From positions 1-20,481 of IMG/VR virus record IMGVR_UViG_3300020213_001056: a DNA stretch of 20,481 nt; one strand, written 5' to 3'. The notes below the pieces were generated by a model, which ran no database searches, was not told where the DNA came from, and worked only from the letters and a program-made list of their open reading frames with translations. The stretch's first letter is position 1; each line of letters opens with the position of its first letter. Made by a program: the position numbers and the translations under genes. The stretch comes from a virus. Shown here piece by piece: positions 1 to 20,481 of this stretch.

Positions 1-1364
1 ATGCTTCCCGAGCCGCTGCCCGACGAGGAACCAGAGGACGAGAACGACGACGACCCGCTCGACTTGCTGCCAGATGAGCCGCTGCCTGATCCCGACCCCG
101 AACCAGAGCCGGAGCCGGAGCCCGATCCGCTCCCGGAACCTGACCCCGAACCGGAGCTGCTGCCTGAGCCAGAGCCGGTGTGCGCGGTCGCGGGCATGTC
201 GTTGTGGACCCACACGCCCTCGGCGAGGAGTGTGTTTGTACCGGGGATGTGGATGGCGACGGTGCGGGTCGGCGCGTCGATGCGAACGGTGGACTCGACC
301 TCCTCCTCGTTCATGTGCTCATCGATCAGGAAGTCGCCGGGCTGGATGAACTCGGCGGACACGAAGCCCCACTCGTCGCCGCGGCGGATCATGAACGGGT
401 GCTCGGGCGTCGCCTTCAGGCGGCGGTTGATGACCATGAAGCCGTGGTGCTCGCCGAGGCGGATGCTCGCCACGCGCGCCGCGACAGGCGTGGCACCGTG
501 CAGGCCGTGGTGCGAGAGCCAGTTGTACTGGGCGCGGTACGGCACATCGACCTCGAGGCCCGGCACCTGGATGGAGGCCACCCGGTCGCCGGGCTTGAGG
601 TTCTCGATCGGCGTGAGGCGGCCGTCCTCGAGGCGGACGAGCGTGCCGAAGAGGAGACAGTTGCTGCCCGGGCCAGACCCGCCCGGCCCGCTGCCGCCCG
701 GACCCGACCCGCCGGGGCCGGAACCACCGGGGCCTGAGCCGCCCGGACCGCTACCGCCTCCCGAGGAACCGCCACCACCGGACGACCCGCCGCCGGAGGA
801 TCCACCTCCGGACGATCCGCCCGACGACGCGCCCGACGAAGCACCGGACGAAGCGCCGGACGAAGCGCCCGATGATGCGCCGGAGCTCATGTCTGAACTC
901 GCGCCCGAGCTCATTCCCGATGAACTACCGCCAGAGCTGCCGCTCGTGCTCATGCTCGACGACATACTTCCGCTCGACGAACCCGACATGCTGCTCGAAC
1001 CCGCGCCCGAACTGCTCGACGCGGATGGCGAACCGCTCTCCGTGCTGCTCGACGGCATCGAGTCCGTCGTGTGGCTGCTGTCGCTCGACGGCGTGTGCGT
1101 CGTACCCGGTGTGTTGCTCGTGAAGGCGCCGGTGGTGTAAAACGTCAGCGTCGGCGTGCCGCCCGGCCCGGTCGTGTAGATCACGTCGCCCGTGGTCGAG
1201 TAGCTCGCGGGCATGCTCGGCGTTTCCGTCGGCGTGGAGTACGAACTATCCGGAGTGTCCGTGCCCGATGGTGTCGAGTAGTTGCTCGACCCGCCGCCCG
1301 TGGGCGGCCGGCCCGTCGCCCAGACGGGGATGTATAAGTAGTATCGGGTCGGGCCGTCGCTCAT
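1..1364 (-). CDS. Hint (intein-like) domain protein with Ser/Thr/Gly-rich arms, C-terminus beyond the window
   Basis: The minus frame is open from ATG at 1364 to the left edge (454 codons, no stop), so the gene is cut off at its 3' end. The start overlaps the stop of the previous gene (ATGA), with GGAGG 7 nt upstream. Residues 1-235 are a low-complexity arm. It is Ser/Thr/Pro-rich at first, then SSGA repeats, then GPGGS repeats. Residues 236-388 form a Hint domain: Cys236 opens block A (CLLFGTLVRLEDGRLTPIE, then GDRV), TPEH at 319-322 is block B, and GTNTLLAEGVWVHN ends at Asn388. Asp389 follows, so the +1 Ser/Thr/Cys nucleophile is absent, as in bacterial intein-like domains. The second arm is (GS)n and continues out of the window. 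Its position after the tail genes suggests a fibre or surface appendage (inference). An unrelated secreted Hint protein is the alternative. Domain call sure; biological role unknown. Confidence 0.85.
   Translation of the reverse strand, partial: MSDGPTRYYLYIPVWATGRPPTGGGSSNYSTPSGTDTPDSSYSTPTETPSMPASYSTTGDVIYTTGPGGTPTLTFYTTGAFTSNTPGTTHTPSSDSSHTTDSMPSSSTESGSPSASSSSGAGSSSMSGSSSGSMSSSMSTSGSSGGSSSGMSSGASSDMSSGASSGASSGASSGASSGASSGGSSGGGSSGGGSSGGGGSSGGGSGPGGSGPGGSGPGGSGPGGSGPGGSGPGSNCLLFGTLVRLEDGRLTPIENLKPGDRVASIQVPGLEVDVPYRAQYNWLSHHGLHGATPVAARVASIRLGEHHGFMVINRRLKATPEHPFMIRRGDEWGFVSAEFIQPGDFLIDEHMNEEEVESTVRIDAPTRTVAIHIPGTNTLLAEGVWVHNDMPATAHTGSGSGSSSGSGSGSGSGSGSGSGSGSGSGSGSGSSGSKSSGSSSFSSSGSSSGSGSGS
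75..152 (-). repeat. (Gly-Ser)13 coding repeat
   Basis: Thirteen consecutive Gly-Ser dipeptides lie in the arm after the Hint domain. The 6-base units vary mainly at third positions (gagccg-like on the plus strand), which suggests selection on the peptide as well as simple slippage. Confidence 0.85.
201..659 (-). other. Hint domain (153 residues, Cys236 to Asn388)
   Basis: The catalytic elements of the Hint fold are all visible: the N-terminal Cys codon at 657-659, the block B Thr and His codons at 408-410 and 399-401, and the terminal His-Asn codons at 201-206. The length fits a mini-intein without an endonuclease. The residue after Asn is Asp, so self-cleavage is more likely than canonical splicing. 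Motifs are seen directly; activity is inferred. Confidence 0.85.
663..749 (-). repeat. GPGGS pentapeptide tandem repeat
   Basis: Five GPGGS units plus a final shortened GPGS, encoded by a 15-base unit, end two codons before the Hint-domain Cys. GPGGX is also the motif of elastic flagelliform silk; here it is more probably a flexible linker (inference). Confidence 0.88.
828..887 (-). repeat. SSGA 12-base tandem repeat
   Basis: Five SSGA tetrapeptides in a row are encoded by a 12-base unit, then grade into SSGG and SSGGG before the GPGGS block. This is typical of a slippage-grown low-complexity arm. Confidence 0.85.
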
Positions 1365-2278: not shown

Positions 2279-2870
2279 AGCCGCACCCCTCCTTCGCCGC
2301 GAACCGCCCGACGATGTACCGACCTTCGGCTTTCGGTGCAGTCACCGTGCCGACACGTCCGATGCGCTCCAGCCACCAGGCGAGCGGCTGCACGGTGGGA
2401 TGGAGCCCCTCGCCGGCAACGGTTGTACGGCTCGGGCGCGTGCAGATCGAGAACACGAAGTGTGCTCGACGGCGACCGACGCGCTGCATCTCCGCGAGCA
2501 CCGCATCCACATCCTCCGGCAGCAGATGCTCCAGGGCGTCGAAACTGGTCACCACGTCGGCAACGCCGTCCAAGAGGCCGGTCTTGTGCATGGCCCGAGG
2601 CACGTCGGCCTCTGGGAACGCGAAGTCGACACCCAGACCGTCGAGGCCAATCCGGCGCAGGTGCTGGATGAAGAGGTTCCGTCCGCAGCCAAAGTCCACC
2701 ACCAAGCGCGGCTTGTACTTCTGCACGAGCGGGATTGCCGCCGCGCCGTGGTTGGTCGCTCCGTAGCCGATTCCCGGCGCAGCCGGCCGCGCGGCGAGCG
2801 CGATGTACTTCTTCCGCTCATGCTCCCGGCGGGCCTCGATGTTCGGCTTGGCGGGGGCGGTCGTCGTCAT
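2271..2870 (-). CDS. Class I SAM-dependent methyltransferase
   Basis: A 199-aa protein with a Rossmann methyltransferase core: motif I VVDFGCG at 57-63, the acidic residue ending the next strand at Asp82 (GLGVDF), and DALEHL at 111-116, as in small-molecule or sugar methyltransferases. It lacks the (D/N/S)PP(Y/F) motif of DNA amino-methyltransferases and the PCQ motif of cytosine-C5 enzymes, so DNA is an unlikely target. The C-terminal part has a HPTVQPLAWWLERI segment. The start is the ATG at 2870 because it overlaps the previous stop as ATGA; upstream codons in this frame are antisense of the neighbouring gene. It sits directly before a DUF115-like gene and the Hint gene, so methylation of a glycan or virion protein is plausible (inference). 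Confidence 0.78.
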   Translation of the reverse strand: MTTTAPAKPNIEARREHERKKYIALAARPAAPGIGYGATNHGAAAIPLVQKYKPRLVVDFGCGRNLFIQHLRRIGLDGLGVDFAFPEADVPRAMHKTGLLDGVADVVTSFDALEHLLPEDVDAVLAEMQRVGRRRAHFVFSICTRPSRTTVAGEGLHPTVQPLAWWLERIGRVGTVTAPKAEGRYIVGRFAAKEGCGCA

Positions 2871-3895
2871 GATGCCCCCTCGATGTAGATGTTGAACTTC
2901 CGGTCCTCGTCGGCGGGATCGGCGATCTCGATCAGGCTCATCGCCTCGAAGACCCACACCGGCTTGCCCTTGCTGTTGCGCTCGCAGGTGAGCTGCACGC
3001 ACACGCCCTCGGGAATGGGTACGAGCTTGGGCTTGAGTGACCGCGCGGGCGGGCACTTGGGGAGGACGCCCGGCAACTCGCACACCGGCCCGAGTCCCAG
3101 CAGTCCGCCGAAGCCGGAGCCGGGGTCGAAGTCGTTCATGTGGTGGGCCTCGAAGCGGTTGATCGCCAGCCGCGTCGGGTCCTCGCCGCCGGCCGCCAAC
3201 TGCGACGACAGGCCCTCGGGCACCGGGACATATCGCAGATAGGTGTCGCTGCCGGGATCGCCATCGATCCGGGCTTCCACCCACGGGTAGCGCCAGCGGT
3301 TGTTCTCGGTGGGGATGGGCTGCGCTGCCCCGAGTATGGCCGTGACGCGGCTGGGTGAAGGCTGGCCCATCTCGATCACGGCCCACTTCTCGCCGACTCC
3401 CTCCTCCTTCCACAGGATCGGGATACCGCCCATCGGCGTGCTGGCCAGCACCGTTTCCTCGGGAGCCAGCTCGCAGGTCATGTCCGTCTCGTTGGTGATG
3501 AACACCCGCGCGGGCGTTACGCCCGTGAGCACGCAGCGCCCGATCTGGCCCGACTTGATCGGCTGGAGCGCCAGCACGAACGAGAGCGATGGCGATTCCT
3601 CGGTGGCGATCTCGCCGGTCAGGGGTGTGCGGCTATGGAATGTACGCTCCTGGTCCTCGCTGTCGGGCTCGACCAGCACGCCTGTGATCGCCAGCGCGTG
3701 GTACGGCTCGATGTCATCATCGGCATCGTTCCGCACGAGCACAATGCCCCGCTGCGCCGCTTCGGTGAGCGGGCCGGCGAGGTTGTTCCGCTCGCGCCGG
3801 CGCAGATCGACCGCCGCATCGACGAAAGCGTTGTACGCCGCCGCGGGGATGCGGAGCGGTTGGCCCGACCGGACTTTGCGGAACATGTCTCCCAT
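2867..3895 (-). CDS. Uncharacterised virion-module protein (342 aa)
   Basis: No family is identified with certainty. The N-terminus (FRKVRSGQPLRIPAAAYNAF, residues 5-24) is the most family-like segment. It is followed by beta-rich sequence with several short motifs such as GPVCELPGVLPKCPP near 275. There is no signal peptide or membrane segment. The ATG at 3895 was chosen because GAGGAG lies just upstream and it clears the previous stop at 3912; a longer frame to 3961 would overlap that gene. It lies between the tail proteins and the modification/Hint trio, so a role in the tail tip or adsorption structure is likely. This placement is inference. Confidence 0.72.
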   Translation of the reverse strand: MGDMFRKVRSGQPLRIPAAAYNAFVDAAVDLRRRERNNLAGPLTEAAQRGIVLVRNDADDDIEPYHALAITGVLVEPDSEDQERTFHSRTPLTGEIATEESPSLSFVLALQPIKSGQIGRCVLTGVTPARVFITNETDMTCELAPEETVLASTPMGGIPILWKEEGVGEKWAVIEMGQPSPSRVTAILGAAQPIPTENNRWRYPWVEARIDGDPGSDTYLRYVPVPEGLSSQLAAGGEDPTRLAINRFEAHHMNDFDPGSGFGGLLGLGPVCELPGVLPKCPPARSLKPKLVPIPEGVCVQLTCERNSKGKPVWVFEAMSLIEIADPADEDRKFNIYIEGAS

Positions 3896-3911
3896 CGTCT
3901 CCTCGTGGGGG

Positions 3912-4718
3912 TCAGATCCCCAGCCCCGTGAAGTTGCCCTCGTCGTACACCCGCTCGACATACGCCGCGACAGGCCGCTTCACGATCGCGTGCGAGCCTG
4001 TGTCCTCCTGGTCGGCGTACCGCACCCACAGGTACTCCCACCCCTTCTTGCTGATGCCGTTGATAGAGCCGACGGAGATGCCGCTCGCGTTCGGACTGGC
4101 CGCGAACCGGAACGAGATCTCCCAGTCGTCGTCGGGATCGGTGCCGCGCCGCGACCCGGATGCACCGAGGAACAGGACCTCGCCCGCCTGGAACCCCTTG
4201 AACGCGCCGGCGTTCACCTTGCCGGTGAGCGAGAAGAGCGTGCCCTTGTACGCGGCCGTTACCTGGTCATTGGTGAAGTAATGCGTCTCGGAGAACTGGT
4301 AGACCGGAACGGTGATGTCCACGCCCTCGACGCCGTCGGCGGTGACACCAATCGCGCCCTGGAAGTCCGGTGCCGTGGTGCCCGAGGCCGCGTGCGATGA
4401 GACGGTGTCCTTGCTCTGCGTGATGTGCTGCGTGCCGCCGCCGGTGTCGAAGGCGAAGATGCTCTCGGCGGGGGTCGGCAGTGAACTCTGGCTACGCCCG
4501 TAGCGGACGACCGCCTCCCACAGTTCGTCGCCGACGGGTTCGACCGACACCGATTGGCGCGGAAGCGTGTCATACGTTGCCGGGCTTGTCGTCTCGGCCT
4601 GGGCGCGGGCGGCAAGGTCGTCGTTGGTGCCGCGCACGGTGTAGACCAGTTCCGCCGAGGGGTTGTCGCCCTTGGTGGACTTGCGGCTCTCGAACTTCTC
4701 CGTCACAACAATCGGCAC
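3912..4718 (-). CDS. Uncharacterised tail-module structural protein (268 aa)
   Basis: First gene after the tape measure, where siphoviruses keep distal-tail and tip proteins, but it does not look like a standard Dit or Tal protein. The sequence is beta-rich and soluble, with LPRQSVSVEP near residue 53 and a repeated pattern of Gly/Thr/Asp-rich turns (FDTGGGTQ; GASGSRRGTDPDDDWEI). The start is GTG at 4718 behind AAGGAG with 8-nt spacing, 29 bases after the tape measure stop. No catalytic motif seen. Best called a virion protein of unknown function, possibly distal tail. Confidence 0.72.
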   Translation of the reverse strand: MPIVVTEKFESRKSTKGDNPSAELVYTVRGTNDDLAARAQAETTSPATYDTLPRQSVSVEPVGDELWEAVVRYGRSQSSLPTPAESIFAFDTGGGTQHITQSKDTVSSHAASGTTAPDFQGAIGVTADGVEGVDITVPVYQFSETHYFTNDQVTAAYKGTLFSLTGKVNAGAFKGFQAGEVLFLGASGSRRGTDPDDDWEISFRFAASPNASGISVGSINGISKKGWEYLWVRYADQEDTGSHAIVKRPVAAYVERVYDEGNFTGLGI

Positions 4719-4747: not shown

Positions 4748-6739
4748 TCAGGCGAAAGTCAGTCCGCCGCTCTGCGCGGCATCGGCCAGCCGCTTGGTGT
4801 GCTTGGCGGTCTGCTCGGTGGCCTTGGCCGTGCGCTCGGCGGCCCCTCCATCGGACTCCAGTCCCTGCACACCCCGGGCGTTGAACGTGCCGCGCACGCT
4901 GATCCCCTTACCGATGACCTCGCCAAGCCCGGCGAGCCGGTCCTCGAACTCGGCCATCAGGTTGCGCGACGAAGCCGGACCGCGCTCGGCATCGGCCGCC
5001 TCGCGCTTCTGGCGGGCCTGTTCGATGGCGTCGGCGAGTTTCTGCTTGGCGGCGTCGAGCGCCGCCTGCGATTCCGCGAGCCCCGCCTCCGTGTTCGCCT
5101 TGAGTGCGGCCTGGGCCTCTTCAAAGTCCTGACCGATTCCGGCGAGCGTGGCCTCGTGCAGAGCAGCGGCCTGCTCGCGCTCCGCGGCACGCTCGCCCTC
5201 CCGTGCGGCCACCTGCCGTTGCGCTGCGCTCTCCAGTTCCGCCAGACGGGATTCGAGTTGATCATCGACAGTCCTCTTCGCGGCGTCCACGTCGAGCCCG
5301 GAGTCGAACAGCCCCTGGATCTCCAGTATCCGTTTGGCGACCCACGACGATGCCGACTCCCACACCTGCTGGAAGCCGGCGGTGAAGTTGCTCCAGGTCT
5401 TCGAAAGGAACGCGGTCGTCTCGATCCACGCAACTTCGAGCGCGTGGAAGACGATCTCCGCGGCGGCGAGCGCGCCGTACCACATGCCATAGGCGGTCGA
5501 GACGAAGAACTCCTTGGCATCGAGCCAGACCTTGTTGAGTGCCGCGACGCCCTGCTGCCAGATCACCTTGAGTGACAGCCACAGGATCTCGGCGGCCAGC
5601 GCGATGTCTCCCGCCGCGAGAGCGTCGGAGATGCCCCCGACGACCTTGGTGACCCACTCCCGCAGGCGTGTGAACTGCTCGCCGAGCCAGGCGAGGGCCT
5701 CGCCCCCTGCGCCCGTCGTGACGATGAGCACGCCGCCAAGCGCCACGATCGCCGCGATCGCCAGGCCGACGGGTGACAGGATGGCCCCGATGGCGGCACC
5801 GATCAGGCCAAAGGCCGTGCCGATGCCGCCGATGACCCCGGCGACGATGCCAAGAGTTGCCGCGATGCCGGAGACGATGTATCCGAGCGCGATGATGGCG
5901 ATGCCCGCCACGGCGACGGCGGCGGCGACCTTGAGCGCCCACACGACCGTCTCCCGGTTCGCCTTGATCCAGGTGGTGGCGCTGACGACGATCCGGGTGA
6001 TTCGCTCCGCCAGGTCCTTCAGCGTGGGCGCGAGCGCCCCGCCGATGGTGAACACGCCCTGCTTGAGCACCTTCCAGAGCGTGCCGAGGGCATCGTTGAG
6101 TTGCGCGGCGTCGCGGGCGGTTTCGGTGCTGACGGTGAGGCCGAAGCGCCGGGCTTCCTCCTGCATCGCTTCGATGCCCGCCGCCCCCTCGGCCATCAGC
6201 GGCAGGAGCTTGGTCCCCGCCTTGCCGAAAACGTCCATCGCGATGGCGGCCCGAAGTGTCGGGTCGGCCACCTTGGAGATCCGCTCCGCCAGAACCTTGA
6301 ACTGCTGTTCGGGCGAGAGCCCAGCCAGCTCCGCCGCGCTCAGGCCGAGTCGGTCGAGTGCATCCACTGCGGTGCTCGATCCCTGGGCGGCTTCACTCAG
6401 CGTCCGCTGCATGATCCGCACGCCGGACTCGAGGGTTTCGAGGTCCGCACCGGAGAGTTCGGCCGCATAGCCGAGTTCCGACAAGGCCTCAACACTCACG
6501 CCGGTTCGGATGCTCATCTTGTCGAGCACATCCCCCATGTCGGAGAACACCTTGGCGGTACCGAGGAGTCCGGTGATCGCTGCCGCCCCGATCCCGGCCA
6601 GTCGTGTGCCGATCGACCGCAACCCCGCGCCGAAGGCTTCGAGCTGCTTCTGGGCGCGGCGAAGCCCGGCGGTGAGCTTGTCGCTCACGCCTAGTTCGAC
6701 GAACGCCCGTCCAGCCCGGATGCCGCGCGTGTCAGCCAC
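4748..6739 (-). CDS. Tail tape measure protein
   Basis: A 663-aa tape measure of the TP901 type, which sets tail length and is thought to pass through the membrane at infection. Residues 60-220 carry the conserved helical region (FSDMGDVLDKMSIRTGVSVE; VFGKAGTKLLPLM). A long hydrophobic Ala/Gly/Ile stretch at 265-345 contains several potential membrane segments. A strong charged coiled coil spans about 490-590, and the C-terminus ends with the usual GTFNARG and heptad-like KATEQTAKHTKRLAD. The GTG start at 6739 has AAGGGAGG 7 nt upstream and is only 3 bases after the preceding stop. At about 1.5 angstrom per residue, a tail near 100 nm is expected, which fits a siphovirus. Confidence 0.93.
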   Translation of the reverse strand: MADTRGIRAGRAFVELGVSDKLTAGLRRAQKQLEAFGAGLRSIGTRLAGIGAAAITGLLGTAKVFSDMGDVLDKMSIRTGVSVEALSELGYAAELSGADLETLESGVRIMQRTLSEAAQGSSTAVDALDRLGLSAAELAGLSPEQQFKVLAERISKVADPTLRAAIAMDVFGKAGTKLLPLMAEGAAGIEAMQEEARRFGLTVSTETARDAAQLNDALGTLWKVLKQGVFTIGGALAPTLKDLAERITRIVVSATTWIKANRETVVWALKVAAAVAVAGIAIIALGYIVSGIAATLGIVAGVIGGIGTAFGLIGAAIGAILSPVGLAIAAIVALGGVLIVTTGAGGEALAWLGEQFTRLREWVTKVVGGISDALAAGDIALAAEILWLSLKVIWQQGVAALNKVWLDAKEFFVSTAYGMWYGALAAAEIVFHALEVAWIETTAFLSKTWSNFTAGFQQVWESASSWVAKRILEIQGLFDSGLDVDAAKRTVDDQLESRLAELESAAQRQVAAREGERAAEREQAAALHEATLAGIGQDFEEAQAALKANTEAGLAESQAALDAAKQKLADAIEQARQKREAADAERGPASSRNLMAEFEDRLAGLGEVIGKGISVRGTFNARGVQGLESDGGAAERTAKATEQTAKHTKRLADAAQSGGLTFA

Positions 6740-8436: not shown

Positions 8437-8865
8437 TCAGCCGCCGATCCATGAAGGCGCCGTCGCCGAGTAGGTCACCTTCGCGGTGACCGACACCGTG
8501 ATCGCCTCCTCCAACGCCTCGTTCCGCGAGAAGTTGGTGATCGAGAAGTCCGCCTGGAGCCCCTGCCCGGCCGTCTCGTCGAGGATCTGAAGGCCGATCG
8601 GGTCGTTGCCGAAGAACGCGTTCTTGATGGCGGTGAACCCGGCGTCTGCCGTGTCCCACACCATCTCGAACTCGACGCTGGCCTCCTTCAGCGTGGCGAC
8701 GGTGGCCCGCCAGCCGCTGTTGGCGCGCGTCGTCACGTCCGCCTCGCCCGCCTCCAGGTTGAGCGTCACATCACGCGTATTGCCCAGCGCTGTCCACGCC
8801 CCGCCGCCTGCTTGGCCGCCGGTCTTGTAGAGCAGCTTGGCTTCCATGCCGAGTTTGATCGCCAT
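8437..8865 (-). CDS. Major tail tube protein
   Basis: The 142-aa product has the pattern of TP901-1/lambda-type tail tube proteins. It has an N-terminal strand region with ALGNTRDVTLNLEAGEADVTTRANSGWRA (given as consecutive short motifs, residues 26-54), then EASVEFEMVWDTAD, and a C-terminal beta half ending AITVSVTAKVTYS. The TTR...GW segment after GEADV is characteristic of the tube fold. The ATG at 8865 follows an AAAGGAA SD. It lies upstream of the chaperones and tape measure, as in siphoviruses. It would polymerise around the tape measure to form the tube. Confidence 0.85.
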   Translation of the reverse strand: MAIKLGMEAKLLYKTGGQAGGGAWTALGNTRDVTLNLEAGEADVTTRANSGWRATVATLKEASVEFEMVWDTADAGFTAIKNAFFGNDPIGLQILDETAGQGLQADFSITNFSRNEALEEAITVSVTAKVTYSATAPSWIGG

Positions 8866-10225: not shown

Positions 10226-10660
10226 TTACTGCGACATGCGGATGCGCATGACCGTGTCTGCATCGGCGGCGGCTTTGACGACCTTGCCGATGAGCTTGTT
10301 GCCCGCGGAGGTCTTGGTGGCCACCTTGTTGGTGTTGTCCCAGTACGCCAGGCCGCCGGCGGGATTCCCGGTGCCGACGCCGGTCGCCTTGGGGAAGTCG
10401 AATACGCCCTGCACGGCGAGCGAGCCGAGTTGGCCCGCCTTGAGGGGCACGCTCGTGACGCCCACCAGATCGGTCTGCAAGACCACCGTTCCCGCCGGGG
10501 TGTCCGCCACCGGCGTGTAATCGATCGCCGCGCCCTCGTGAACAAACGTTGTCGCCATCGTTGATCCTCCTGGGCCGGGTCCCGGCCCGCCTGGTTCGAC
10601 TGGTCCGCCCGGTTCGAGCTCGCCGTCCTTCCCGTCTCCGATCGGGACTTCGTCCGCCAT
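10226..10660 (-). CDS. Capsid cement/decoration protein, DUF2190-like, with Gly/Pro N-terminal extension
   Basis: Residues 35-144 match the DUF2190 capsid cement pattern: ATTFVHEGAAIDYTPVAD, AGTVVLQTDLVGVTSVPLKA, GVFDFPKATG and AYWDNTNK...AGNKLIGKVVKAA. These proteins stabilise capsids from outside. Two starts are credible. The ATG at 10660 overlaps the capsid stop (TGATG), and an ATG at 10558 has AGGAGG at 7-nt spacing and yields the usual 110-aa length. The extra 34 residues (EPGGPVEPGGPGPGPGG) are Gly/Pro-rich. Both forms may be made. The core is confident, the extension less so. Confidence 0.85.
   Translation of the reverse strand: MADEVPIGDGKDGELEPGGPVEPGGPGPGPGGSTMATTFVHEGAAIDYTPVADTPAGTVVLQTDLVGVTSVPLKAGQLGSLAVQGVFDFPKATGVGTGNPAGGLAYWDNTNKVATKTSAGNKLIGKVVKAAADADTVMRIRMSQ
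10556..10571 (-). promoter_or_regulatory. Internal ribosome binding site and start in the cement gene
   Basis: AGGAGG (10571-10566) lies 7 nt before ATG at 10558, in frame with the longer ORF and exactly at the beginning of the DUF2190-like core. Confidence 0.6.
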
Positions 10661-12603
10661 CAGACCTCACCCTTGCTCTTGATGCCGCCGCGGGTGTCCT
10701 GCAGGGCGACGCCGAAGTCGTGGTATCCGCGCATCCGCACGCCGAGCTGGCTGAAGTCGGCGTCGGAGGTCTCGATGGTCGGGGCTTCCTGCCCGTTGAG
10801 GAACGCCATCTCGACAACCGGCAGATCGCTGGGGTCGGCAAGGAGATACCACGCCTTCGCCGAGTTGCCCGTGTAGAGCGCGTTGGAGAGGTAGCGGCTG
10901 ACCTCGATGCGGAACTTGCCCTGGTGGGGGTTGGCGACGGGGAACTTCGTGTTCGCCGTGGTATCGCGCATCTCCACGCTCTTGTAGAGCTGCGTGCCCA
11001 CCGCCGAGAGCGCCGTCGGAACCAGCATGATCGCTGGCATCACGCCCGTGGGCTTGCCGTCGGCATCCACGAGGTCCATGAACGTAACCTCGCCCTTGGT
11101 GAGGCCGTCGATGCCCAGCGCGGTGTCGGCGCCCGAGACGAAGTTCTTGTTGCCGACGCTGAAGAAGGCGGCGTTGTTCATGAACGCCGTCCAGAACACG
11201 TCGTTGATCTTCAGGCCCGAGCCACGACCGAGTTTGCGGGGCACGGTGGTGATGGCCCCGAGGTCGTCGTTGATGATGTCGCGGCGGTCGATCGCCAGCA
11301 TCAGGCCGTAGGTGTCGGCCTTGTTGCTGTAGGTCTCCTCCCCGAGCGTGCCGTGCTTGAGTTCACCGCCGGGGGCGACCTGCTCGTACTGGTCCTTGCC
11401 GATCAGGCGGTAGCTCGTGACGGTCTTGAAGTCAGAGACGTTGCGGACGGCGCAGATGCTCCGCCAGACACGCTCGACGCTGAAGAAACCTTCGAGCAGG
11501 AACTTGTTGGCGACGTTGGAGAGGATGCCGCCCACGTCGATGGTGGACATGCCCGCTTCGATGCCTCGGCCGAATGCGGCTTCGAGCACGCGGCGGCTGT
11601 CACGGAACGTGCGGCCGGTGTATCCGTTGGCGATCGCGGCCTCGAAGAGGAGTTCCTGCAGGCCCAGCCCGCCCTGGAATCGCTTGGCGGCGATCTCTAG
11701 CGCCTGGGCTGAGCAGACCTTCTCGACGCCTTCAAGCTTGGCGCTCTGGAAGCACGCAGCCTCCAGCACCTCGCTGGTCACGCTGGTGTCCGGGGCGTGG
11801 ATGGCCGGAGCTTTCGGGCGGCTGGCGCGGAGGACCTCGAGCTCGGTGCGCGTGGTGTCCCAGTTGTCACGGATCGCCTGGGCCTCGATCTCGCTGTGTT
11901 TGCCGGCGCAGACCTTGCGGACGGCGGCGATGCGGCTCGTTTCGGCGAGCGCTGCGGCGCGGATCTGCTCGGGGGTCTGCTCGGCGGCGGTGATGAGGGC
12001 GGGCGTGGGGCTGGAGGCGTTGGGATCGTCGGCCATGACGCTGGGCTCCTTGTTCTGAAGCGCGGCGATGCTCGCGCTGGTGCGGCCGTCTGCGCCGAGA
12101 TCCACGAAACTGATCTCGCCGAGCGTGGCCTTGCGGACGACGTTGACCGGGCCGGTGAGTTCCTGGCCGTTGACCGTCGCCTTCTGGTTGTCCTTGATGA
12201 ACTCGAACTCCTCGACGCTCGCGCCGACCGACGCCTGCCAGGGAAAGCCGTTCCGTGACGACGCGACGACCTCCTTGGCGGCCTGGGTGTCGCGGGAGAT
12301 CACGCCCGTGGCGACGAGTTGCCCGGCTTCGACGCGGATCGCATCCGTGTGACCGACACCCGAGAGCGGATCGTGCCCGAAGCGGATTGGGCGAGCCTGC
12401 GAAGGAACCGCAAGGCCGGCGAGATCGATCACGACCGGGTGACGCCAGCCCGCGACGCGCATCGCGCCGCCGGTGTACGCGACCATCTTGAAGCGCGGGA
12501 GGGGCGCGGCCTGACCATCCGCCGCAGCGGCGATGGTGATGTCGGCGATCGCGGTGAGCGTGAGCGCGGGAATGGTCTTCGTGGGGTCAGCGGTGGCTGG
12601 CAC
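10660..12603 (-). CDS. Fused prohead protease-major capsid protein
   Basis: A 647-aa polyprotein from the GTG at 12603, which has GAGGAG upstream and overlaps the portal by 17 bases; an ATG at 12657 would overlap by 71. The N-terminal part (about 20-185) has the HK97-type prohead protease pattern: a His in RFGHDP (His77), a Ser in GFPWQASVGAS (Ser125) and the following LGEISFVDLGAD (about 162-172). The C-terminal part (about 190-647) looks like a gpT/HK97-type capsid subunit (NKFLLEGFFSVERVW, NDDLGAITTVPRKLGRGSGL, RIEVSRYLSNALYTGNSAKA). The protease cleaves the capsid shell during maturation. It lies between portal and cement genes, as expected. A nested start may also make capsid protein alone. 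Confidence 0.88.
   Translation of the reverse strand: MPATADPTKTIPALTLTAIADITIAAAADGQAAPLPRFKMVAYTGGAMRVAGWRHPVVIDLAGLAVPSQARPIRFGHDPLSGVGHTDAIRVEAGQLVATGVISRDTQAAKEVVASSRNGFPWQASVGASVEEFEFIKDNQKATVNGQELTGPVNVVRKATLGEISFVDLGADGRTSASIAALQNKEPSVMADDPNASSPTPALITAAEQTPEQIRAAALAETSRIAAVRKVCAGKHSEIEAQAIRDNWDTTRTELEVLRASRPKAPAIHAPDTSVTSEVLEAACFQSAKLEGVEKVCSAQALEIAAKRFQGGLGLQELLFEAAIANGYTGRTFRDSRRVLEAAFGRGIEAGMSTIDVGGILSNVANKFLLEGFFSVERVWRSICAVRNVSDFKTVTSYRLIGKDQYEQVAPGGELKHGTLGEETYSNKADTYGLMLAIDRRDIINDDLGAITTVPRKLGRGSGLKINDVFWTAFMNNAAFFSVGNKNFVSGADTALGIDGLTKGEVTFMDLVDADGKPTGVMPAIMLVPTALSAVGTQLYKSVEMRDTTANTKFPVANPHQGKFRIEVSRYLSNALYTGNSAKAWYLLADPSDLPVVEMAFLNGQEAPTIETSDADFSQLGVRMRGYHDFGVALQDTRGGIKSKGEV
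12034..12051 (-). promoter_or_regulatory. Internal ribosome binding site and start for free capsid protein
   Basis: AAGGAG (12051-12046) sits 9 nt before an in-frame ATG at 12036, at the boundary between protease and capsid parts (after LQNKEPSV). It would yield a 458-aa capsid protein without protease. Confidence 0.55.
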
Positions 12604-14134
12604 TGGCGGTCTCCTCGTCGAGTACTTCAGCGGGGTCGGGGTCTTCGGCGGGCGCATCCGCGGCCGGCGCGGCAGTCTGCGCCGTTGCAGATGCGAGGCC
12701 GAGTTCGTTCATGAGCGTGAGTTCTTTGGCCCGCTGACGGAGCTCCTGCTCCCAGTCGCGTCCCTGCCGGGCGAACTCCGCGGCGAGCGTGGTCGTGTGA
12801 TTGGCCAGACGGGTCGCCTGCGCGTTGGCTTCCTTGGCAGGATCGACGTGCTCGACGCCATCCCAGAACCACGCGTGCTCCGGGAGCGTTGCCGCCCCTC
12901 CGGAGAGCGTCCGCATGGACTGCGGAAGCAATCCCTCGACGAGCACCGCCTCGTTGAGCCAAGCCTTGAGGATCCGATCGAGAACGGCAAGCTGCAGGTG
13001 GTGCTGCTCGACGCGGATGCTCTTGTAGTACACCTGATGGTCGAGGCGACCGCTGGCGTAGTTGTACCCCGATGAGTTCCCCGCCGCGACGTTGAACGGC
13101 ATGTTCAGGCAGCGGGCGATCTCATTGAGAACCTCGCGCTTGAACTCACCGAATGTCGTCGTCGGCTGTTCGGCGTGGACTTGCCCGAGCTTCCAGCCGC
13201 CGGGGAGAACCGTGGCGATCCGCTGCTCGAGTTCGACCTCGTCCATCGGCTCCAGCGGATCGGCCTCGCCGTTGGGCGGGCTGTCGGTGTAGATGACGGC
13301 GGCAAAGTTGGCGGCGGTCTCGGCGGCGGCAATGGTCGCCAGCGTGTATCGGCGGAGCTGCGCAAACAACGGGAGCGCCGGCGTGATGTCGGGAATGCCG
13401 CGGAGTTGGCCGGGGCGGTCGGCGCGAAAGTAATGCACGACCGAAGCAGCCGCGAACGTGTCGTAGGCCGTGAGGTCATCAATGGGCGTGCGGAACACAC
13501 CGCTATCGCCGGGGTGCCGCTTCAGCACGCGGTAGGCCGAAGGGTTGCCCCACGGGTCCAGTGTGATGCCGTCGATCTCATCGTTGCGCCCGCGACGCAG
13601 CAGCGGCGTGCAGACCTGATCGGCCTCGATGAGTTTGAGGTCGAGCGAGACGCGCGAGCCGATGCCCGGATTGCTGACCAGCAGGGCGAACGCCTCGCCG
13701 CTCTCGGCGCGGGCCAGCCGCATGGTGCGGAGCTTGCCGGGGAGATCAATCGCACGCGACCACTGCTCGAACGCATCCTCAATGCGGGCATTGGCTTCGG
13801 TGTCGCCCGTCAGCATCTGCAGCCGGGGACCGGTGCCGATGGTGTCGTTGGCGAGCGTGAGGACGATGCCCTTGGCGTAGGAGTTGTTGGCGACCTCGTA
13901 GCGGGCGCGGTTGCGGAGGACGCGCCGCACCTCGGGGTTGATCGCTGCATTCGGTGACAGCCCGTCGGCGTTCGCCCAGTGCTTGCGGTTCTCCGGTGTG
14001 GTCTTGGCCGAGTCGAACTTGGCAACCACAAGACGGCGGGGGAGGCCGTCGCTGCGCGGAGCGTCCGTGCTCCGCTCAGCGGGGGAGGGGGGACGGCCGG
14101 TCCGACTCAGAAGATTGGCGATGGCCTTGAGCAT
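12587..14134 (-). CDS. Phage portal protein, lambda gpB family
   Basis: The 515-aa product is the dodecameric vertex portal through which DNA is packaged. It has the family's N-terminal NPEVRRVLRNRARYEVANNS, an IGTGPRL segment, IEADQVCTP, and the diagnostic FNVAAGNSSGYNYASGRLDH of lambda-type portals at about 365-385. The C-terminal 40 residues are Ala/Pro/Asp-rich. The start is ATG at 14134, nine bases after the upstream stop, with no strong SD. It follows terminase and a gpW-like gene and precedes the protease-capsid gene, the lambda order. Confidence 0.93.
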   Translation of the reverse strand: MLKAIANLLSRTGRPPSPAERSTDAPRSDGLPRRLVVAKFDSAKTTPENRKHWANADGLSPNAAINPEVRRVLRNRARYEVANNSYAKGIVLTLANDTIGTGPRLQMLTGDTEANARIEDAFEQWSRAIDLPGKLRTMRLARAESGEAFALLVSNPGIGSRVSLDLKLIEADQVCTPLLRRGRNDEIDGITLDPWGNPSAYRVLKRHPGDSGVFRTPIDDLTAYDTFAAASVVHYFRADRPGQLRGIPDITPALPLFAQLRRYTLATIAAAETAANFAAVIYTDSPPNGEADPLEPMDEVELEQRIATVLPGGWKLGQVHAEQPTTTFGEFKREVLNEIARCLNMPFNVAAGNSSGYNYASGRLDHQVYYKSIRVEQHHLQLAVLDRILKAWLNEAVLVEGLLPQSMRTLSGGAATLPEHAWFWDGVEHVDPAKEANAQATRLANHTTTLAAEFARQGRDWEQELRQRAKELTLMNELGLASATAQTAAPAADAPAEDPDPAEVLDEETASASHR

Positions 14135-19104: not shown

Positions 19105-20481
19105 TCAGGCCTTGCCCCCAGCCGCGACCTTCTTCGGGGGCGCGGCTTTCTCTTCGGCCACGCCCTTTGCGGGGAGCCGCTCCGCCTTCCGCCCTGTGAA
19201 CTTCTCCCAGCGCTGCACGATGACATCGCAGTAGAGCGTGTCGAGCTCCATGAGGAACGCCCGCCGCCCGGTCATCTCCGCGCCGATGAGCGTGCTCCCG
19301 CTGCCGCCGAAGAGGTCGAGCACGTTCTCTCCGGGCCGCGATGAGAACTCGATCGCCCGCCGCGCCAGTTCAACCGGCTTCTCTGTGAGGTGGACCATGC
19401 TCTGCGGGTTCACTTTCTTGATCGACCACACGTCCGGCACATTGGCTGGGCCGAAGAAGCGGTGCGCTGCCCCCTCATGCCAGCCGTAGAAACACCATTC
19501 GTGGTTGCCCATGAAGTCCTTGCGCGTGAGCACCGGATGTTCCTTCACCCAGATGACCGCCTGCGCGAAGTAGAGCTCGTGCCGCTTGAGCACGGGCGGG
19601 TAGTTGCCGCAGTTGGCGTAGCCGCCCCAGATGTAAAACGTGCCGCCAGGGATCAGGACGCGGGCGATGTTGCCGAACCACGCTTCGAGCATCTTGTCAA
19701 ACGCCTCGTCGGTGACAAAGTCGTTCATGAGCGGGCGGTCCTTGGCGCGGAGCTTCTTGTGCGTCGCGCGGCTCTTCTCGGGGTAGCGGTTGAGGTCGGC
19801 GCTCTGCTGGTCATGGTGGTCGGCCTTGCCCGGCAGCGCGAACGAACTCAGGCCGGCGACGATCGCGTTGTTCGAGCGGGGCTCGACCTTCACGTTGTAC
19901 GGCGGGTCGGTGTTGACCAGATGGATCTGCTGCCGGTCAAGGAGCCGGTCTAGATCCGCGGGTTTGCTGCTGTCGCCGCACATCAGCCGGTGGTTGCCGA
20001 GCACCCAGATGTCGCCGGGCACCGTCGTCGCTGCGTCCGGTGCGCCCGGCACGTCGTCTGGGTCGGTCAGGCCCTCGTTGCCCACCGGAGCCATGATCGC
20101 GCTGAGGTCCTCGACGCTGAAGCCCAGGAGCGCGAGGTCGAAGTCCACACCCTTGAGGTCAGCGAGTTCCAGCGGCAGGAGTTCCATGTCCCACGTCGTG
20201 AGCGATGCGACCTTGTTGTCAGCGATGCGGAGCGCCTTGACCTGATCGGGCGTCAGATCCGTGGCGCGGATGACTGGCACCTCCTTGAGGCCGAGCTTCC
20301 GGGCGGCGCGGAGCCGCGTGTGCCCGGCGATGATGACACCGTCGGCGTCGATCAAGATCGGCACCTTGAAGCCGAAGGTCTGGATCGACTTGGCCACCGC
20401 ATCGATGGCGGCGTCGTTGATGGTGCGGGGGTTACGGTCGTATTCGTGGACCGCGTCGATGGGAAGCGTTTCGATGTTCAT
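19105..20481 (-). CDS. ParB-like / DNA methyltransferase fusion
   Basis: The 458-aa product has a ParB/sulfiredoxin-like N-terminal domain (about 5-95, with GVIIAGHTRLRAARKLG around 48-64), then a beta-class DNA amino-methyltransferase: catalytic NTDPPYN at 190-196, HLTEKP at 364-369, and SAM-binding FGGSGST at 391-397, in the order IV-X-I expected of the group. It would methylate adenine-N6 or cytosine-N4 in a sequence-specific way, commonly to protect phage DNA or control packaging. The C-terminus is Lys/Ala-rich. The ATG at 20481 coincides with the window edge, so a longer start outside cannot be excluded. It is convergent with the island genes. Confidence 0.9.
   Translation of the reverse strand: MNIETLPIDAVHEYDRNPRTINDAAIDAVAKSIQTFGFKVPILIDADGVIIAGHTRLRAARKLGLKEVPVIRATDLTPDQVKALRIADNKVASLTTWDMELLPLELADLKGVDFDLALLGFSVEDLSAIMAPVGNEGLTDPDDVPGAPDAATTVPGDIWVLGNHRLMCGDSSKPADLDRLLDRQQIHLVNTDPPYNVKVEPRSNNAIVAGLSSFALPGKADHHDQQSADLNRYPEKSRATHKKLRAKDRPLMNDFVTDEAFDKMLEAWFGNIARVLIPGGTFYIWGGYANCGNYPPVLKRHELYFAQAVIWVKEHPVLTRKDFMGNHEWCFYGWHEGAAHRFFGPANVPDVWSIKKVNPQSMVHLTEKPVELARRAIEFSSRPGENVLDLFGGSGSTLIGAEMTGRRAFLMELDTLYCDVIVQRWEKFTGRKAERLPAKGVAEEKAAPPKKVAAGGKA

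Follow-up and report, generated by a model that had tools for sequence, protein, structure and literature searches.

The first 1,364 nucleotides of IMG/VR virus record IMGVR_UViG_3300020213_001056 raise the question of which strand encodes a protein at the end of a phage tail gene block, and of what a Hint domain would do in that protein. The window analysed here is the complete record of 20,481 bases, so that there is no sequence to its left by which the contig could be extended. An open reading frame (ORF) of 379 amino acids spans positions 1–1140 of the plus strand; opposite to it, a minus-strand frame runs from an ATG at 1364 to the contig end through 454 codons with zero stops. The initial annotation had proposed that this second frame is a hidden gene whose product carries a Hint domain. 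We find that the minus-strand gene is real and that its relatives share the catalytic positions of the domain and a lysine-bearing tail; self-cleavage, leading to maturation or release, would be the likeliest class of mechanism.

A minus-strand gene encoding a Hint domain

Codon-position counts did not separate the strands at the Hint gene because the third positions of the two frames coincide, and the ratio of nonsynonymous to synonymous differences (pN/pS) in each frame was therefore used together with the occurrence of stop codons. Against 13 relatives, the gene gave minus-frame pN/pS values of 0.048 to 0.199, and the minus value was lower than the plus value in every pair (13/13). Over the segment that encodes the Hint domain, the minus frame was free of stops in all 24 sequences, whereas the frame of the plus-strand ORF was interrupted by stops in 21 of the 24. 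The reverse assignment, with the 379-codon ORF as the gene and a minus frame open by chance, can appeal to the open plus frame in the window and to the three sequences that lack stops in that frame over the Hint segment, but it is refuted by the stop counts, the pN/pS comparisons, and the Hint profile and fold matches of the minus-strand product. The minus-strand gene is real, the plus-strand ORF is its shadow, and the Hint gene is under protein-level purifying selection.

The gene (1–1364, minus strand, as are all features of the gene given below) starts with an ATG at 1362–1364 that overlaps the stop codon of the upstream gene (1361–1363) as ATGA, and its 3′ end lies beyond the contig; complete homologues have a stop codon. 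The product begins with an N-terminal anchor motif of the YxLYIPVW type (MSDGPTRYYLYIPVWATG, residues 1–18, 1311–1364), which is also present in homologues without a Hint domain. This is followed by a Ser/Thr/Gly-rich N-terminal arm that contains no Cys (N-arm, residues 19–235, 660–1310), the Hint domain from Cys1 to Asn (residues 236–388, 201–659), and a Ser/Gly-rich C-terminal arm that is cut by the contig end (C-arm, residues 389–454, 3–200). Cys1 (657–659) is residue 236, directly after Asn235, block B reads T-P-E-H (residues 319–322, 399–410), and block G provides His387-Asn388 (201–206) as the last residues of a WVHN that ends at residue 388; the +1 residue is Asp389 (198–200). Within the C-arm lies a lysine motif, KSSGSS, which begins with Lys434 (residues 434–439, 48–65). 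The Hint blocks and the low-complexity arms around them are thus present as the initial annotation had described them. Among 42 relatives found with the N-terminus of the gene, nine are also on contigs that end inside this low-complexity gene, and the missing stop codon in the window copy is therefore best read as an assembly break. Virus contigs often stop within the Hint gene, presumably since Ser/Gly repeats break assemblies, and genes with such repeats may be under-counted in viromes.

On its own, the window domain gave its best single-sequence Pfam match to PT-HINT (PF07591; E-value 5.6e-6, 27.1 bits against a curated cut-off of 27.7 bits) and also matched Hint_2 (4.2e-5, 24.4 against 28.4 bits), a family matched at an E-value of 0.01 or better by 25 of 29 aligned relatives. 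A profile built from these 29 found the solved bacterial intein-like (BIL) domain 2LWY from Clostridium thermocellum (4.5e-6) and several inteins. For residues 236–388, the span for which the initial annotation had asked for a Hint profile match, the single-sequence matches are thus real but just short of the Pfam cut-offs; PHROG matches of the Hint protein were at chance level. With the predicted model of the domain (predicted local distance difference test score, pLDDT, 87.6; predicted template modelling score, pTM, 0.80), Foldseek ranked 2LWY first (1.6e-8), then Tetrahymena BIL2 (2.3e-7), then inteins (from 1.1e-6). For a second model that includes the C-arm, VIA Z scores were 20.2 for BIL2, 19.4 for 2LWY, 19.0 for the Ssp DnaB intein and 17.5 for Hedgehog; BIL2 leads this intein by little over 1, and 2LWY and the intein are tied.

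Judged from sequence and predicted structure, residues 236–388 are a Hint domain with intact catalytic residues, the predicted fold being accompanied by the block A nucleophile, the Thr-x-x-His of block B and the His-Asn of block G that characterize the superfamily. Every sequence feature of type-A BIL domains that was tested is found as well: His-Asn is kept, a +1 nucleophile is absent, and the domain is located in a variable region of a non-conserved protein. The features tested for class 1 inteins are lacking, with Asp389 at +1, a site in low-complexity sequence, and a different segment at this place in the Hint-less homologues; a homing endonuclease, optional for inteins, has no room in a domain of 153 residues. 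Behind the Hint domain of complete relatives there are only Ser/Gly-rich tails, and neither the toxin expected of a PT-HINT protein nor the sterol-recognition region of a Hedgehog Hog domain is seen there.

Relatives and conservation of the catalytic positions

Viral contigs were searched with the Hint domain, with the neighbouring glycosyltransferase-like gene and with the N-terminus of the Hint gene, and genomes were searched with the Hint domain. The family was defined as ORFs with a Hint domain at a tblastn E-value below 1e-10, and loci were taken from the Hint and glycosyltransferase searches plus the window. The 131 non-redundant Hint ORFs obtained in this way comprise the window copy, 48 ORFs on viral contigs and 82 on genome contigs. 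As 80 of 89 genome relatives were taken in, the family is larger than counted; all counts for the family are minimum values and refer to sequences rather than to independent events. Left out were two likely chance matches in coiled-coil-rich proteins (L033, L035), a Hint domain in a terminase-like protein (L034), intein-like matches in other proteins (L098, L099, L102), and further distant matches (L027–L032, L094–L097, L100, L101). The search patterns included T[PF]EHP, TPEHPFMI and GVWVHNDM, and none of the patterns contained Cys1, the −1 Asn or the lysine motif.

The titles of 71 of the 80 genome loci are of the form Phycisphaer- or otherwise Planctomycet-, and the remaining nine read Dehalococcoidia, Cyanobacteria, Leptolyngbya, Rhizobiaceae, Nevskiales or 'bacterium'; titles of metagenome-assembled genomes may be wrong. 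The virus probably infects planctomycete bacteria. Several copies of the Hint gene, some of them decayed, occur in single Phycisphaeraceae genomes (L106, L164 and L165 in CP054186.1; L121, L124 and L125 in JAHBXF010000002.1), which is probably due to poly-lysogeny.

Cys1 is Cys in all 129 Hint ORFs counted at this position, and the −1 residue is Asn in 125 and Ser in 4 of them; these counts exclude L179, which is cut, and L180, whose match starts at query residue 50 and which is not homologous before it. The block B Thr and His and the block G His are found in 131/131 ORFs and the block G Asn in 129/131, the equivalent of Asn388 having been lost, with Cys1 kept, in L146:10001 (His, WVHHD) and L149:10001 (Asp, WVHDN). 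At +1 the 131 ORFs have Asp (120), Thr (4), Ala (2), Gln (2), Asn (1), Tyr (1) or Ser (1). The catalytic positions, including Cys1 and the −1 Asn, are kept down to about 50% identity.

A Hint and lysine-tail module on two different N-termini

In 125 relatives, the tail behind the Hint domain is Ser/Gly-rich and extends for 16–145 residues to the stop codon. The pattern K-x-S-[GS]-S occurs in 128 of the 131 Hint ORFs (127 by script, and the window read directly); it is missing from L063 (which reads KSSGAG) and from the decayed L121 and L180. In an alignment of 43 sequences, whose rows were chosen among those with His-Asn, columns K201, S203, G204, S205 and S206 are conserved at 90% or more. 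The N-arms are free of lysine in 118 of 125 sequences, and the C-arms have one lysine in 73/125 and two to four in 51/125. Both arms are free of Cys in the 98 anchored ORFs (of 101) that could be delimited by script. No structural contact between the lysine motif and the Hint domain is seen in the model that includes the C-arm, where the block-mean pLDDT of this part is 43–51. The conserved lysine may belong to a recognition or docking peptide or act as an acyl acceptor. A further C-terminal peptide, GGxEGVPxxxW (e.g., L021:5299-6822), is present in 27/131 Hint proteins and 5/5 Hint-less ones and looks like a docking peptide.

Two architectures carry the Hint domain. In the anchored architecture, found in 101/131 ORFs, YxLYIPVW stands upstream of the domain. 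In the fused architecture (15 ORFs on 11 contigs), a protein of the p364 type, related to the N-part of a tail-region protein of the window, is joined through a Ser/Gly linker to the Hint domain; the remaining 15/131 ORFs are cut or decayed. At L169 (8341-10600), L175, L181 and L090, the p364-type protein is split over two adjacent genes, each with a linker, a Hint domain and a lysine tail.

Homologues without the domain were found by two routes. By the glycosyltransferase gene, 32 loci were obtained, of which 17 have a Hint domain, 7 are cut too early, 3 have other genes (their glycosyltransferases are 37–44% identical) and 5 are Hint-less. The search with the N-terminus, which does not depend on the glycosyltransferase, gave 42 loci: 29 with a Hint domain, 8 cut too early and the same five Hint-less contigs. 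These five (L051, L052, L054, L055, L057) encode complete, anchored Ser/Gly-rich homologues, and a search for a Hint domain at an E-value of 0.01 found none in the five records, which are fragments, while three control records were positive. The lysine motif is likewise found in 0/5 Hint-less homologues versus 128/131 Hint ORFs. In the place of the Hint domain they have a repeat-like, Ser/Thr-rich segment of about 60 residues (TLTLGSxGTI...TTLTIGTSSDSFTG; e.g., L051:7885-8862). In a quick tree of the glycosyltransferase that included two of the five, L051 and L055, these two form one clade that adjoins Hint-bearing phages, and the Hint-less state is therefore probably the result of a single replacement. 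The initial annotation had pictured the domain as inserted in the arms; instead, Hint and the lysine-bearing tail seem to form one module that is carried by two different N-termini.

Swapping of the Hint domain between phages was considered and is not claimed, as unequal rates would be possible. Some identities hint at it (Hint 57% and glycosyltransferase 87% in L021; Hint 78% and glycosyltransferase 72% in L017). With quick trees, the Hint data do not reject the groupings of the glycosyltransferase tree (approximately unbiased test, p-AU 0.386 and 0.329), and the glycosyltransferase data reject the Hint-tree grouping (p 0.0005).

The modification enzymes accompany the anchored protein

The initial annotation had coupled the Hint domain to modification enzymes. 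Counting homologues of the window's glycosyltransferase and methyltransferase, we found a glycosyltransferase upstream of all 90 anchored Hint genes with more than 5.2 kb of upstream sequence (the window included), and a methyltransferase as well in 85 of them. By the same upstream length, the glycosyltransferase is upstream of 0/14 fused Hint genes, and the Hint-less homologues keep both enzymes, also when they are reached through the N-terminus of the gene. Among the 15 unclear ORFs, five have enough upstream sequence, two with a glycosyltransferase and three, all decayed (L121, L165, L180), without one. Because the anchored genes have the enzyme in 90/90 cases, the fused genes in none, and the Hint-less genes retain both, the enzymes track the anchored Ser/Thr-rich protein and not the Hint domain. 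The proposed coupling thus holds for the adjacency to anchored genes and fails as a link to the Hint domain. From the match of the glycosyltransferase-like protein to the sialyltransferase-like PHROG 4603, our guess would be that the two enzymes modify the N-arm.

Proposed self-processing and its alternatives

Self-processing is judged most likely because the window domain has each of the type-A BIL sequence features tested. Type-A BIL domains have a C-terminal His-Asn, no +1 nucleophile and mainly cleavage products (PMC4031507, PMC7664689, PMC7765530); they are described as able to ligate when a freed amine attacks the N-terminal thioester (PMC4031507) and elsewhere as unable to ligate (PMC7765530). 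By analogy, we consider it moderately probable that the Hint domain is an active, type-A-BIL-like self-processing domain in which the acyl shift at the N-junction is essential and the Asn-dependent release of the tail is second and less strict. The protein would be a flexible tether in the tail region, made up of a short anchor, a Ser/Thr/Gly linker of about 200 residues, the Hint domain, and a Ser/Gly tail with the lysine motif. Cys236, aided by Thr319 and His322, would attack the Asn235-Cys236 bond in an N-to-S acyl shift, and the C-terminus of the N-arm would become a thioester. Asn388 would cyclize, cutting the chain before Asp389, and the N-arm thioester would be hydrolysed or passed to an amine. 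Since +1 is Asp, which is not a nucleophile, mainly cleaved products are expected rather than cleanly spliced ones. The tip of the tether could in this way be matured, or on cue released or activated, after assembly or at contact with the cell. The invariant Cys1 and near-constant −1 Asn, set against a variable +1 residue and two losses of Asn388, weakly suggest that the reaction at the N-junction is the essential one.

Several findings weigh against this self-processing scheme. The invariance of blocks B and G is partly built in, because the search patterns contained those motifs; block G comes close to block A in conservation, and few sequences underlie the preference for the N-junction. By manual reading of the alignment, the block F:4 position, which is Asp in inteins (PMC4031507), is Ala, Ser or Arg in 131/131 ORFs, and the His that inteins usually have in block F (PMC7765530) is apparently replaced by an invariant Asn. 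Rates or steps may therefore differ, and the family looks, from these replacements, like a separate Hint subfamily. Disorder is predicted for the lysine motif (block-mean pLDDT 43–51, model residues 161–221). The Hint-less homologues look like one clade, and the joint absence of Hint and lysine motif amounts to about one event. Finally, some copies are decayed (L121, L165, L180).

The main rivals are splicing and a silent structural domain. In splicing, the Hint domain would be excised like a degenerate intein and the N-arm joined to the C-arm as a continuous Ser/Gly tether. Type-A BIL domains can splice without a +1 nucleophile (PMC4031507), a few relatives have Thr (4/131) or Ser (1/131) at +1, and the Hint-less homologues combine the same N-arm with the GGxEGVPxxxW tail on one chain, as ligation would yield. 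However, +1 is Asp in 120/131, which makes canonical splicing unlikely; the Hint-less proteins hold another segment of about 60 residues in place of Hint and lysine motif, leaving no clean empty site; the site is in low-complexity sequence, unlike that of intein hosts; and the tails vary in length (16–145 residues) and then end, with no obvious need to be rejoined. We regard splicing as unlikely, and rank next after it the reading in which a chemically silent β domain of the Hint fold acts as the tip, or as the receptor-binding head, of a flexible tail fibre. The C-terminal position of Hint domains on tail proteins of several phages, the natural losses of Asn in L146 and L149, and Asp at +1 would all fit such a head; the retention of catalytic positions in sequences as little as about 50% identical, among them Cys1 and the −1 Asn that were absent from the search patterns, argues against it.

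Below both of these stands the doubtful proposal that the Hint thioester is passed to the lysine of KxSGSS, either within one tether or on a neighbouring one, or else to an amine of the host surface, which would form isopeptide loops or nets at the tail tip or attach the phage to the cell by covalent bonds. The joint occurrence of Hint and lysine, the Cys-free arms, the nearly lysine-free N-arms and the lysine-rich short tails in other phages are compatible with it, and if such acyl transfer to an amine took place, it would provide a natural protein-ligation tool and a new hold of a phage on the cell. Least probable, and disfavoured by us, is that the domain sets free a toxin at the C-terminus, in the manner of PT-HINT in polymorphic toxins, where HINT directly precedes toxin domains (PMC3482391). 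PT-HINT is indeed the best Pfam match of the window domain, but 125 relatives have only Ser/Gly-rich residues behind Hint, nearly always with the lysine motif, and the partial tail of the window, the one tail modelled, is predicted to be disordered, at low pLDDT. Set beside these alternatives, self-processing by a BIL-like domain is the reading we retain. A Hint and lysine module that is carried by two N-termini, replaced in a sister clade and echoed in other phages suggests that Hint chemistry matures or couples phage tail proteins.

Genes around the Hint gene

Terminase, portal, protease/capsid, tube and tape-measure genes are all found in the window. From the tape measure onwards, relatives show the same succession of p268, p364, methyltransferase, glycosyltransferase-like gene and Hint gene, in agreement with the tail-end position given by the initial annotation; the Hint gene is the last of the tail run, and the content downstream of it varies among eight loci compared. 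All the following genes are on the minus strand. The glycosyltransferase-like gene (CST-I sialyltransferase/MptE-like, 1361–2278) matches PHROG 4603 at an E-value of 1.5e-11, and its Pfam matches are below the cut-offs (CST-I 0.041, MptE-like 0.024). It is preceded by the gene for a class I S-adenosylmethionine-dependent methyltransferase (2271–2840; PF13489 6.9e-9, PF08241 2e-8), the tail-region protein p364 (2867–3961; RKVRSGxPLxIPAaayNAFVDAA), a homologue of whose N-part is fused to the Hint module elsewhere, and p268 (3912–4718), which is next after the tape measure and has no family match. The tail tape measure protein is encoded at 4748–6739 (PHROG 8462, 2.4e-51) and the tail tube protein at 8437–8865 (PF06199, 1.4e-11). 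An ORF at 10660–12657 is apparently a fusion, with matches to families of the head maturation protease and of the major head protein (PHROG 4523 and 133). Another, at 19105–20481, joins a ParB-like N-terminus to an N6/N4 DNA methylase and has its ATG at the right contig end.

Comparison with known systems

The initial annotation had called such a Hint domain in a phage tail-end gene unusual. The 131 ORFs collected here, and tail proteins of other phages that end in Hint domains, show that the arrangement is not isolated: Hint domains recur on phage tail proteins and are in part annotated in databases, where the proteins are labelled virion structural, tail or 'intein domain'. Collagen-like tail proteins that end in a Hint domain with Cys1, block B His and His-Asn are found in Alexandravirus (gp112), NCTB (SBV38305) and Alcaligenes phage Afa-NA1; two further NCTB proteins end in Hint domains, of which SBV38304 seems to be without the block B His. 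These domains are 27–32% identical to that of the window, with tails of 3–12 residues and Thr, Ala, Lys or Met at +1. In a small, hand-picked set, the tails after His-Asn contain Lys (AVMVAKK, KVD, APVDQKH, TDIVAKAEKT, MDDSGYETKRKY, and LKM in L095/L096). In Alexandravirus, the gene following the Hint protein encodes a second collagen-like protein (L036:6462-7094). A phage protein of about 775 amino acids (L028:2200-4530, also L027, with its start cut, and L029–L032) has three tandem Hint-like domains, two of which end in VHN, and is possibly processed at multiple sites.

The available parts of papers on phage Hint domains (PMC3556154, PMC5259590, PMC5526547) deal not with tail tethers but with terminase or ribonucleotide-reductase-like proteins that hold inteins or insertions. 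Terminase inteins are reported for the NCTB/AD1 group (PMC7412058), inteins are only mentioned in the portions available of PMC13282480 and PMC6892783, and the words hint and intein are absent from PMC7824862 and PMC5512222. Among the literature matches listed, which are openly licensed full texts, we found no description of this phage family and no discussion of phage tail proteins that end in Hint domains. The domain type is known; for the setting of the family and its conserved lysine tail, no description was found among those matches.

Among characterized relatives of the fold, class 1 inteins (Mtu RecA, Pho RadA, Ssp DnaB) have the fold and blocks A, B and G in common with the window domain, which, unlike them, has no Cys, Ser or Thr at +1, no room for an endonuclease, and a site outside a conserved protein. 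PT-HINT pretoxin domains (PF07591) give the best Pfam match, and the complete relatives have no toxin-like domain behind Hint. The Hedgehog Hog domain (1AT0) shares the fold, Cys1 and the thioester step, and the window domain has no visible sterol-recognition region. BIL2 of the Tetrahymena BUBL1 locus (6Y75, 6TMM), with the highest VIA Z score, shares the Hint fold. It differs in belonging to a ciliate locus and in being flanked by other domains. The type-A BIL domains, represented by 2LWY, have in common with the window domain the Hint fold, Cys1, TxxH, His-Asn, the lack of a +1 nucleophile, and a place in the variable part of a non-conserved protein. Unlike them, the window family, whose activity is predicted, sits on prophage tail-region tethers with a conserved lysine motif, and a large, coherent BIL-like family that is naturally flanked by such tethers offers a testable setting for the natural function of BIL domains.

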